Assembly (NCBI GenBank): GCA_001779195.1
Contig: MFJL01000015.1
Span: 1-43,334, forward strand
DNA from: Candidatus Gottesmanbacteria bacterium RIFCSPHIGHO2_02_FULL_39_11
Lineage (GTDB): Bacteria; Patescibacteriota; Microgenomatia; 2-02-FULL-39-11
Length of the DNA stretch: 43,334 nt
Reading direction: 5' to 3'
The notes beneath the pieces are model-generated. The model worked only from the letters and a program-made list of their open reading frames with translations, had not been told where the DNA came from and ran no database searches. Within the stretch, counting starts at the first letter, position 1; each line of letters begins with the position of its first letter. This document shows positions 23,163 through 27,137 of this stretch, one piece after another. The position numbers were made by a program, and so were the translations under genes.

Positions 23163-23271
23163 TTAATATAGAACCTAGACGGATATATAAATTTACCTAT
23201 TGATCAGCACCGACATATTCTGATTATATAAAATTAAGTGCTACGCGCTACGTTGACAAAATTAGAAAATT

Positions 23272-24891
23272 TCAAAACAAACTCATTTGGTCTTTATTAA
23301 TGACTTTATTTTTAGAGGAACTGATAATTTTAGTTAATCCCAAACTTCGATAAGTTCGCAGTCGTTTAAAATACATCAATTTCAGCATGGGTGCTTGGTC
23401 ATCAAAGTAATCATGAACGACGGCTTGTGTTTTACCCTCACAATTTCTTTGCACTCTACCAACATACTGAATTAACTTACCCTTCCAAGAAGATGGAAAC
23501 GCCAGAAATAAGTGAGATACGGCTGGCCAATCAAAACCTTCGCCAATCAACTTGCCAGTAGCGATTAGCAATTGAAAGCGTTCTTGATTCATCCGTTTGG
23601 CGGTTCGCTCGCGTTGTTTTTTAGTCATAACTCCGGTTGCAATAGCGGCATGGATACCCTTGGATTTTTGTCGAACCAATTCAAGTAACTTCTCACAATG
23701 CTCAATCCGTTCGGTAAGCACCAAGCATTTTGCACCGGTTGTTAAAACTACTGCAATGTCGCTGGCAATTTGCTCATTCCGATTTACGTCGGCTACAATG
23801 AATCGACAGGCTTTCTGAAAGTCTTCCTGTTTACCGTTTCCTTTAAATTGGGTTTTCCGAGTAATTAACTCTGTTTTGATTGTTGGTCTTGATTCATTGC
23901 GTTTATCTTGATCATTATTTGTAGCCGTTATTACCTGGTCGCTGATGTATAAATACATCAATTTTTCCAATTTGTCCTTGCGAAAAGTAGTGGCGGTTAG
24001 CCCTAAAACATATTTTGCTGGGAATTGTTTGACTACAGTACTAAAAGTATTTGCAGGAACATGGTGGCATTCATCAATAATTATTAACCCAAAATCATTT
24101 TTTATTTCATCAACTCCTCGCCTGGATAGAGTCATATAAGAGGCAATAGTAACTTTTTTACCAATTTTCCACTTATTATCGCCAATCAACCCTAAATCAT
24201 CTTTTGCCAGCGAAAAGTAATCGGCAATTCGTTTTTGCCACTGATGTAGTAGGGTATTGGTGTGAACAATAATTAGCGTTTTTTGACCCAGCTTTTTCGT
24301 CAAAGCTAGAGCAACCATGGTTTTACCAAACCCCGGTTGAGCTTCCAAAATTACGCGATTATTTACAACCAGTCTCGACAAAACTTGTCTCTGGTCTTTT
24401 CGTAGAATTAATTTTGAAGGAAAACGCATCTGCTTAGTGGTTATTCGTTGATCGGTAATTTCAACTTTAAGTTGTTCTTTTTGAATAAATTCGTTTAGTT
24501 TGTTTAGAAATCCCAACGGAACGACAACACCATCTGGTAATACTCCAAGAGTTTTAATAAATCTTGATGTTTGCCATGTTGAATAACCAAATCTCTCTTT
24601 GTCATAAAAGTCAGGATTGGGGAAGTTCAACTCCTTTTTTAGATAGCCATAAAGCTTATCTGGTAACCAAATATTGGGAATGAAAATATTTGCTCTCAAA
24701 ACCAGCTTGACTTCATGGCTTTGAGTGATGGCTACCGGCTGATCGTCAGCCTCTTCATTCTCTTGAGTTTTGAGGTTTTCGTCAGGTGTTATCTTAGTAT
24801 TTGCTGAGAGTTTAACCGGAAGTTTTATATAGCGCTCAAGAAATTGATCAACTTCTTGCTTGGTTATTTTTCGAATCTCGCGTAAATACTG
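23272..24891 (-). CDS. DEAD/DEAH helicase part of a TOTE-like primase-helicase
   Basis: Superfamily 2 helicase: Walker A EAQPGFGKTMVALAL, DECH box IIIDECHHVP, motif III GLTATTFRKD, motif VI QYVGRVQRNCEGK. The track starts at a TTG (24699), but the frame is open back to 24891, immediately after the TGA of the upstream primase ORF, and the added stretch (QYLREIRKITKQEVDQFLER) is clearly coding. In TOTE systems primase and helicase belong together, so this is probably one gene of about 738 codons split by one stop. Translation of this half alone would need reinitiation or a downstream start. Codon use differs from the flanking core genes. Confidence 0.85.
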   Translation of the reverse strand, partial: QYLREIRKITKQEVDQFLERYIKLPVKLSANTKITPDENLKTQENEEADDQPVAITQSHEVKLVLRANIFIPNIWLPDKLYGYLKKELNFPNPDFYDKERFGYSTWQTSRFIKTLGVLPDGVVVPLGFLNKLNEFIQKEQLKVEITDQRITTKQMRFPSKLILRKDQRQVLSRLVVNNRVILEAQPGFGKTMVALALTKKLGQKTLIIVHTNTLLHQWQKRIADYFSLAKDDLGLIGDNKWKIGKKVTIASYMTLSRRGVDEIKNDFGLIIIDECHHVPANTFSTVVKQFPAKYVLGLTATTFRKDKLEKLMYLYISDQVITATNNDQDKRNESRPTIKTELITRKTQFKGNGKQEDFQKACRFIVADVNRNEQIASDIAVVLTTGAKCLVLTERIEHCEKLLELVRQKSKGIHAAIATGVMTKKQRERTAKRMNQERFQLLIATGKLIGEGFDWPAVSHLFLAFPSSWKGKLIQYVGRVQRNCEGKTQAVVHDYFDDQAPMLKLMYFKRLRTYRSLGLTKIISSSKNKVINKDQMSLF

Positions 24892-25485
24892 TCATTGGTT
24901 GGGAATCGCTATGCCGTCTTGGTTAATAAACACAGTTTTTTCTTCAACGACAAATTTTCCTTGAAGAGGTAAACAAATCAAATTGCCATAACCCTTGCCG
25001 GTATGTTCGTCTTGGCTTGGGAACATTCGATCAAACGTCTTTCTGTTCTTAATACCTGCCTGACCTAGGAGAAGTTTACCCATCTGACGCGCTTTATAGG
25101 CAGGTAACCGTTCGCTAAAGAAAAACCATAGATGTCCACCATTACCGGATTTTGACCGTTCTACAGCACAAAATAGACCGTTATCTATGGCAATAATTGA
25201 TACATTTTGTATCAAGTTAAACCAATCAAGTCTATCAAAATCAATGGCTAAGAAAGCAGTTGTATTGTCTGGAAACAAGGGGTAAACCCCAAGGGTTTGA
25301 TTTCCTTCAAGGTGGGCTAAGATAACTGTATCCGTCAGTGCTTGTGGACTTTGATTTAAGCGATAAACTGGGGCATAACCAGACTTTTTCTGAGATAAAT
25401 CTTCCCAATATCGAGCAAAGACGTCATCTCTGGTATTAAACAGAGATCTGTATAGCTTAATGTCTTCGACTGATATATTAGACAT
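24892..25485 (-). CDS. Archaeo-eukaryotic primase domain, TOTE conflict-system type
   Basis: A 197-aa AEP-like domain. FARYWEDLSQKKSGYAPVY, FLAIDFDRLDW (metal DxD), AVERSKSGNGGHLWFFF (the S-x-G-x-G-x-H-x-W-x-F motif of the TOTE primase family), FDRMFPSQDEHTGKGYGNLICLPL. It terminates at TGA 24894-24892, where the helicase frame continues without shift; from memory the family has Trp in this -QW- context. Biological role: helicase-primase conflict elements linked to mobile DNA or defence (established for the family). ATG start at 25485; it diverges from the AAA ATPase gene. Confidence 0.85.
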   Translation of the reverse strand: MSNISVEDIKLYRSLFNTRDDVFARYWEDLSQKKSGYAPVYRLNQSPQALTDTVILAHLEGNQTLGVYPLFPDNTTAFLAIDFDRLDWFNLIQNVSIIAIDNGLFCAVERSKSGNGGHLWFFFSERLPAYKARQMGKLLLGQAGIKNRKTFDRMFPSQDEHTGKGYGNLICLPLQGKFVVEEKTVFINQDGIAIPNQ

Positions 25486-25526
25486 ATCTTTTCATTTAAC
25501 TGAAAGCAACTAACTAATTGTTTTCA

Positions 25527-25555
25527 TTGACAGTGAAAACAAATTGTATTATAGT
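25527..25555 (+). promoter_or_regulatory. Promoter of the AAA/DUF4143 gene, near-leaderless
   Basis: TTGACA, 17 nt, TATAGT, then 9 nt to ATG 25565. Strong consensus -35. It lies in the divergent spacer shared with the primase gene. Confidence 0.75.
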
Positions 25556-25564
25556 AGATAACAT

Positions 25565-26851
25565 ATGGCAGATCAACAACAGACCCAGATAACCAAAGAC
25601 GTTCTTGCTTCAGCCTTGAAAGAACAGGCTGAATCTTTCAAAAATCGTGATTTAGGTATTGAAAGAGAAATACTCGATCAGTTGAGTGATGCTGTTTCTG
25701 CACCCCAAATTACGGTTATTACTGGCTTGCGACGAGTCGGTAAGTCAACTCTCCTTACCCAAATAGCCAATAGATATCTTAAAGACGGGTATTATTTTGT
25801 CAATTTTGAAGACGAACGACTATTGAACTTCCAAGTCAGAGATTTTGATTTACTCCACGAAACACTCATCAGTCTGTTTGGTGAAAAGCAAACATTCCTA
25901 TTTGACGAAATTCAAAATGTACCAGAGTGGGAGCGATTTGTTCGTCGACTTCACGATCAGGGCTATAAGTTTATTGTAACCGGTTCAAATGCCTCTCTTT
26001 TAAGTCAGGAACTGGGGACCCGGCTGACTGGTCGTTCCATACGGATAGAACTATTTCCGTTTTCGTTTCGGGAGTTCTTGTTGTTTAAGAAGGTTGAAAT
26101 TCCTGATCTAAAAGTATTAACCACTAGGCAAAAAGGTCAACTTCTTAAATTGACGAAAGACTATATTGTCTCTGGTGGCATTCCAGACGCGCTCAAGTAC
26201 CCAGAACTAGAAATTCACAAAACACTCTATGATGATGTTTTGTATCGTGATATTGCGACTCGATATAAACTGGATAACGTCAAGAGTCTAAAAGAGTTGA
26301 CCTTTTACCTCGTCAGTAATATTTCAACACTTATTTCTTTCAATAAACTCAAGGAGCTTCTCAAGCTCGGAAGTGTTAATACCGTTAAGAGTTATATTGA
26401 TTACTTGGAAAATAGCTGGTTATTTTTTGTCGTCAATAAATATGCCTATTCTGTCAAAGAGCAACAAATTGCCGCCAAGAAGATATATAGTATTGATACA
26501 GGCTTAGTTGGTTCAGTCGGTTTTAGCTTTTCTAAAAACAAAGGGAAGTTAATGGAGAATGTGGTTTATCTTCAATTGCGAAGAAAGCGTCAAGACATTT
26601 ATTACTATAAAACCGTTCAAGATTATGAAGTTGATTTCTTTTTACCCAAAGAAAACGCATTTATTCAAGTATCACAATATTTTGACTCACCGGAAACGCA
26701 AGAGCGAGAATTAAGAGCGATTACTGCCGCCGTTCAGGAACAAAAGGAAGTTACAACACACGTTGTGGTGACTGAGAGTGATAAACAAATCTTGAATAGA
26801 GAAGGCTTACAAATTCAGGTTGTACCATTATACGAATGGTTATTAAAATAA
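25565..26851 (+). CDS. AAA_14/DUF4143 ATPase
   Basis: A 428-aa protein of the widespread AAA-DUF4143 type. Walker A GLRRVGKSTL (about 54-63), Walker B TFLFDEIQNVPEW, sensor VTGSNASLLS, TGRSIRIELFPFSFREF. Then the DUF4143 region: ALKYPELEIHKTLYDDVLYRDI, a winged-helix-like NTVKSYIDYLENSWLFF, and a PD-(D/E)xK-like end (MENVVYLQLRRK, YEVDFFL). The usual E-x-K of the nuclease-like core reads QVS here, so it may be catalytically dead. It is a presumed defence/mobile-element ATPase, divergent from the TOTE genes. Confidence 0.88.
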   Translation: MADQQQTQITKDVLASALKEQAESFKNRDLGIEREILDQLSDAVSAPQITVITGLRRVGKSTLLTQIANRYLKDGYYFVNFEDERLLNFQVRDFDLLHETLISLFGEKQTFLFDEIQNVPEWERFVRRLHDQGYKFIVTGSNASLLSQELGTRLTGRSIRIELFPFSFREFLLFKKVEIPDLKVLTTRQKGQLLKLTKDYIVSGGIPDALKYPELEIHKTLYDDVLYRDIATRYKLDNVKSLKELTFYLVSNISTLISFNKLKELLKLGSVNTVKSYIDYLENSWLFFVVNKYAYSVKEQQIAAKKIYSIDTGLVGSVGFSFSKNKGKLMENVVYLQLRRKRQDIYYYKTVQDYEVDFFLPKENAFIQVSQYFDSPETQERELRAITAAVQEQKEVTTHVVVTESDKQILNREGLQIQVVPLYEWLLK

Positions 26852-27055
26852 GGACAAGGATATTTAAGATTGCCTCTGAAACTTCATCGTCTAGTCAGCC
26901 CACCAGAAATTGTAACCGTTGAGGAATCTTGAACACTTTTGAAGCTAAATTATTAGTCTTAAAAACGAGGTTGTGTTCAATAAGTTTATATCCCCTGAGA
27001 TTAGCCCTATCTATCAATCTATTCGCATCTTTGAACCAAAGGTGTGCTCCTTGGG
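26852..27055. other. Gap with possible coding remnant
   Basis: On the minus strand the frame entering from tRNA-Leu reads AHLWFKDANRLIDRANLRGY and on to a stop at 26895, with protein-like composition but no start. It may be the 3' scrap of a lost gene at the edge of the TOTE/AAA insert. No other feature seen. Confidence 0.3.
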
Positions 27056-27137
27056 TGCCGGGGAGAGGACTTGAACCTCCAAACCTTTCGGTATACGGTC
27101 CTAAGCCGTACGCGTCTACCAGTTTCGCCACCCCGGC
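27056..27137 (-). tRNA. tRNA-Leu (TAG)
   Basis: An 82-nt class II tRNA. Acceptor GCCGGGG/CCCCGGC, D-arm TGGCGAAACTGGTAGACGC, anticodon stem TACGG/CCGTA around loop CTTAGGA (anticodon TAG), long variable arm, T-arm GGAGGTTCAAGTCCTC; 3' CCA not encoded. It marks one border of the accessory TOTE/AAA segment. Confidence 0.95.

Follow-up and report, generated by a model that had tools for sequence, protein, structure and literature searches.

The 43,334-nucleotide stretch of DNA analyzed here (the window) contains a primase-helicase gene of the TOTE type that is interrupted by a single in-frame TGA, and the nearest relative of this gene carries a different stop, TAG, at the identical codon. In both genes the coding sequence is intact and constrained on either side of the stop, and the standard genetic code is in use. 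The explanation that we prefer, to which we give roughly an even chance, is that the stop has been retained and is leaky, in which case translation would yield mostly a truncated primase, together with a little full-length protein produced by near-cognate readthrough.

The window makes up one contig of a genome of 1.55 Mb (G000) that is fragmented (46 contigs, 92% complete) and whose relatives belong to a CPR class. The primase open reading frame (ORF) begins with ATG and, after 197 codons, reaches the TGA in the context IPNQ-TGA-QYLREIRK. As the earlier note had described, the same frame then runs on into the helicase: it remains open for 539 codons up to the terminal TGA, with neither a second stop nor a frameshift, a run whose probability by chance is ~6e-12. 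The read-through product has 737 residues and comprises a TOTE AEP primase and an SF2 helicase. Its residues 7–214 match PF22548 (AEP-TOTE) with 217 bits, compared with 196 bits for the primase half cut at the stop (the curated cut-off of the family is 27 bits), and the remainder matches Pfam ResIII and Helicase_C, which bears out the TOTE-like assignment made from the sequence at the outset. The AEP catalytic residues D82, D84, G116, H118, and W120 (the DxD motif and the GGHxW histidine) are invariant in a ten-row alignment (A2), the helicase motifs are retained, and the domain order is that of a TOTE primase-helicase. The primase domain shares its fold family with the CAPP Prim-Pol structures 7NQD and 7NQF, its closest solved relatives, and those of the helicase are XPBII/RAD25. 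Primase and helicase are nevertheless not contained in one open frame, since the TGA at codon 198 interrupts it. The residue expected at this codon was indeed Trp, as the earlier note had proposed: the column is invariant in alignment A2 and Trp is seen in every aligned W-bearing homologue. The nine other Trp codons of the gene are all TGG.

The AlphaFold2 model of the read-through protein (mean pLDDT 75) shows two helices, at residues 197–203 and 209–220, followed by a disordered linker from residue 221. The residue of codon 198 is placed at the start of the first of these helices, 23 residues ahead of the linker. According to the model, the stop is therefore not interdomain, and termination at this point, ~20 residues short of the domain end, would deprive the primase of its two final helices. 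The coordinates of these and the neighboring features are given in Table 1.

Table 1. Features of the interrupted gene and of the module that contains it (window positions)
Feature	Position	Strand	Evidence
Transferred module of two genes, 3.6 kb	23270..26869		82% nucleotide identity to G338 contig C57, 4376-7963
Terminal TGA closing the read-through frame (sister gene: TAA)	23272..23274	-	
Downstream half in the same frame: primase end, linker, XPB/RadD-type SF2 helicase	23275..24891	-	ResIII, Helicase_C
First canonical in-frame start past the stop, TTG, +65 codons; lacking in the sister gene	24697..24699	-	
Codons 199-220, predicted to form the two final primase helices	24826..24891	-	AlphaFold2 model
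In-frame TGA, codon 198; Trp column in homologues, TAG in the sister gene	24892..24894	-	
N-terminal ORF, AEP-TOTE primase residues 1-197	24895..25485	-	PF22548 195.8 bits, profile 1-212/230
Second palindrome copy, weaker/degenerate, adjoining the TOTE start	25489..25507		
Operator-like palindrome GTTTTCA-N7-TGAAAAC	25520..25540		Layout shared by four genomes
Divergent AAA_14/DUF4143 ATPase, partner gene	25565..26851	+	PF13173, PF13635

The nearest relative, 84% identical in amino-acid sequence, comes from Candidatus Pacebacteria bacterium CG_4_10_14_3_um_filter_34_15 (L060; the same gene lies on contig C57 of genome G338), a member of another order of the same CPR class whose genome was published independently. 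The next relatives, at 65–68% identity, have TGG at the position and no internal stop. In the tree, the two stop-bearing genes group together (support 100/100), and their branches, both 0.10 long, show no acceleration. No other full-length homologue with an internal stop was found in the class and phylum samples. Likewise, no further stop-bearing member of the clade was found in two strongly overlapping class samples (374 and 373 genomes), in the sampled orders of G000, G338, G172, and G127, or among 380 genomes of the phylum. A first scan for viral relatives yielded none and an alignment scan yielded distant kin only, at ≤34% identity; the single viral match to the stop-site pattern proved to be an unrelated phage PhoH-like gene and was discarded. 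The Acinetobacter towneri plasmid pGX5 carries a distant, unannotated TOTE primase-helicase with a frameshift near residue 412 (L102:3001-5210), the primase of which keeps the Trp.

Selection was compared on both sides of the stop. The window gene and its sister differ by about one synonymous change per site (dS 0.8–1.1, depending on the region), and omega between them is 0.085 for codons 1–197, before the stop, and 0.075 for codons 264–737, the helicase half. At ~0.08 in both halves, omega gives no sign of the relaxed selection of a pseudogene, and added lesions are absent as well. The entire stretch of codons 199–263 gives 0.152, and codons 199–224 give 0.020 (8 synonymous changes and 1 nonsynonymous, NG86 counts). 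The amino-acid divergence of the stop-bearing pair downstream/upstream of the stop is 0.148/0.157, within the range of W-bearing pairs. The sole coding indel after the stop is of 12 nt and in frame, and among the 129 helicase-half positions that are invariant in the other rows the window gene deviates at 2 and its sister at 3. Codons 199–224, a 26-codon boundary picked after the alignment had been seen, evolve 1.2–2.8 times faster than the primase in all pairs except the stop-bearing one, and 0.24 times as fast as the primase between the two stop-bearing genes. For the 22 codons 199–220, delimited by the structural model, the binomial chance of so few changes lies between 0.05 and <0.0001, according to the family rate assumed. 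As the segment is slow only between the genes in which a stop precedes it, it appears to be constrained as protein. This selection could nonetheless predate the stops, if these were recent and separate.

The gene does not stand alone. The aligned region shared with G338 spans the primase-helicase and a divergently oriented ATPase gene and is bordered by flanks without homology on either side (blastn and tblastx, whole window against G338 contig C57), which indicates that the two genes moved as a unit. The ATPase is 90% identical in the sister module, with an omega of 0.035, and matches the PADLOC candidate defence family PDC-S01 (E=2.9e-108). It adjoins the TOTE gene in four CPR genomes, two with Trp and two with a stop. 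The stretch between the divergent genes (window 25489-25555, with counterparts in L136, L223, and L224) holds a TATAAT box in addition to the two palindrome copies, is conserved in four genomes, and is probably an autoregulatory operator; transcriptional control thus seems to have been retained too. Neither Cas1 nor Cas2 was recognised in the gene list of the window. A tRNA-Leu(TAG) gene at window positions 27054-27137, ~190 bases past the end of the module, is possibly an insertion hot spot.

Decoding was surveyed in both hosts. All tRNA hits were inspected with ARAGORN (49 in G000 and 34 in G338); a UGA-decoding tRNA-Trp was looked for in both genomes and only one tRNA-Trp, with anticodon CCA, was found in each. 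None of the tRNAs found has an anticodon for UGA, UAG, or UAA, and no suppressor tRNA was found in the transferred module. RF1 and RF2 are encoded by both genomes, each with the GGQ motif. The RF1 gene of G000 (L140:1579-2280, contig C9) looks N-terminally short, with 233 amino acids from the first ATG. TGA and TAG terminate ordinary genes in both genomes, and in the window 8 of 27 long ORFs end in TGA, as expected from the earlier remark that TGA is a normal stop there. The marks of a UGA=Trp code, namely a tRNA-Trp(UCA), loss of RF2, and disuse of UGA as a terminator, were not seen. Around the stops themselves, CAA precedes and CAR follows in both copies; the base after UGA in the window is C, and the UAG of the sister gene is flanked by CAA. 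A complete leaky hexamer was not found at either stop, nor was any RNA structure shared downstream of the two, the predicted folds being different.

Three readings of the TGA had been put forward in the earlier note: a one-off inactivation, programmed readthrough, and acquisition from an element in which UGA encodes Trp. The last of these is not supported, in view of the sister TAG and of the decoding apparatus of both hosts. In its broader form, a module that came from, or still relies on, a code that assigns an amino acid to the stop (UGA as Trp, or an element-encoded suppressor tRNA), it is compatible with the horizontal transfer between unrelated flanks, yet it is extremely improbable given that the two copies differ in their stop codon (TGA and TAG), Trp codons that are otherwise TGG with no other in-frame stop, the failure to find a suppressor tRNA either in the module or among the tRNAs detected in the two genomes, both release factors being present, and the ordinary genes that end in either codon. 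A sequencing or assembly error, which the fragmentation of the genome might suggest, is just as hard to credit, since the genome of the sister gene, published separately, shows another stop codon there. It is also rather improbable that the gene has been split into two working proteins, a stand-alone primase ending at the stop and a helicase made from its own internal start. The helicase ORF as listed, 23272-24699, does start at an in-frame TTG, 65 codons past the stop, and another TTG, ~84–88 codons past it, is common to both genes. The former, however, is missing in the sister, the latter would remove the conserved IFIPNIWLPDKLY block, and no ATG or GTG is present between the stop and the conserved helicase part. 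The constrained codons 199–224 would moreover go untranslated, and the relatives are single ORFs, not pairs of proteins with starts just past this point. Since the stop interrupts the fold of the primase domain and is not followed by a usable start that both genes share, a clean split is unlikely. An ATG that overlaps the TGA in the window (A-ATGA) was considered as a restart and rejected, as it is in a different frame and absent in the sister.

There remain, as the main rival, two recent and independent inactivations by nonsense mutations at the same Trp codon, with decay not yet begun, which we regard as possible, if on the unlikely side. This history requires the fewest mutations, TGA and TAG each being one G-to-A change from TGG: two under separate origins, compared with three under a single origin. 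Conflict and mobile genes are often broken, and the mobilome category is over-represented among in-frame stops (Belinky et al., PMC7918605). Lone in-frame stops also occur elsewhere in both genomes, where other convincing gene interruptions number two in ~0.4–0.46 Mb of G000 and one in ~0.3–0.33 Mb of G338. Those in G000 are a lone in-frame TAA in a Maf-like gene, with a PF02545 match that spans it (contig C25, L037:2292), and an in-frame TAG that lies ~92 codons short of the frame end in a family-2 glycosyltransferase (contig C44, L232:9656); in G338, the frame of a LAGLIDADG endonuclease is cut by a single TGA (contig C69, L262:12881). Against this, the coincidence itself is demanding. In the 271 codons considered, 331 single-base nonsense mutations are possible, 77 of them transitions, of which TGG offers two, and a second independent nonsense mutation would hit this very codon in ~0.6–2.6% of cases, atop two events that are each rare; a similar estimate by Belinky et al. 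(PMC7918605) is 1.5%. Stops are absent from every other full-length homologue in the class and phylum samples, neither gene has a second lesion, and the branches are not accelerated. By our inference, a stop that is shared or has been tolerated repeatedly is more likely than coincidence by several to one, though not overwhelmingly so. The one-off TGG-to-TGA inactivation of the earlier note is accordingly weakened by the stop at the same codon in the sister and by the strong purifying selection on both halves, and of its three options programmed readthrough emerges as the best supported, while itself remaining a candidate.

A retained, leaky stop is favored by the same-codon stop in the sister, the constraint on both sides of it, and the preserved ATPase and operator repeats. 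Counting against it are the two known stop-bearing members, the one mutation more that a single origin costs, the lack of a conserved RNA structure past the stop, and the usually short life of in-frame stops (Belinky et al., PMC7918605). In its favor, the same study notes the leakiness of UGA and, in enterobacteria, the insertion of Trp. We infer a common ancestry, in which the leaky stop would be older than the split between the two known carriers. Ribosomes would mostly halt at codon 198 and release a primase that lacks its last two helices, and a minority of them would insert an amino acid and go on to the full-length primase-helicase. In the gene of the window, tRNA-Trp(CCA) acting as a near-cognate at UGA, the textbook kind of leak, would restore the native residue. 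Readthrough of UAG more often inserts Gln, Tyr, or Trp, and any of these may be incorporated at the stop of the sister. The stop would thus dampen the expression of a conflict-type enzyme, and may be either selected for or merely tolerated. A more specific version, in which the stop is a sensor and the full-length enzyme would become abundant only when termination is disturbed (for instance by a phage suppressor tRNA, recoding, or release-factor depletion), we consider very unlikely; on this view, whether a copy has UGA or UAG would adjust it to its own kind of threat, and this would account for the fact that what is kept is a stop and not a particular codon.

Bacterial in-frame stops are usually filed as pseudogenes, and here both halves of the gene remain under selection, in the CPR, a lineage about whose translation fidelity little is known. 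Should readthrough occur, a working protein is being cut in two by gene callers, and a defence-type enzyme would be controlled through the efficiency of termination.

Among known systems, viral-type programmed readthrough cassettes keep the domain past the stop in frame. The present gene resembles them in its in-frame downstream domain and in the CAA before and CAR after the stop, and differs in that neither a conserved downstream stem-loop nor a complete leaky hexamer was found. With the primase-helicases of TOTE conflict systems (PF22548 and SF2 helicase) it shares the catalytic residues, the helicase motifs, and the domain order; it departs from them by the in-frame stop in the primase domain, confined to a two-member clade, the other full-length ones found being single ORFs. 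The helicase-bearing, non-CRISPR CAPP proteins (CAPP_A type 3), which occur in mobile elements without CRISPR genes (PMC8211822), have the same succession of Prim-Pol and helicase, with a Prim-Pol that aligns to 7NQD/7NQF, whereas the gene of the window is not one open frame. The closest parallel to the stop itself is found in the in-frame stops described by Belinky et al. 2021 (PMC7918605), with which it has in common an orthologous stop in two species, a mobile-type gene, and a dN/dS well below 1 on both sides of the stop. Those cases are mostly population-level, whereas the present pair is far older, with dS ~1 and a lower omega, and its two members have different stop codons at the site. 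Conserved in-frame stops were thus already known; what is new is the presence of two different stops at one codon at a dS of ~1.
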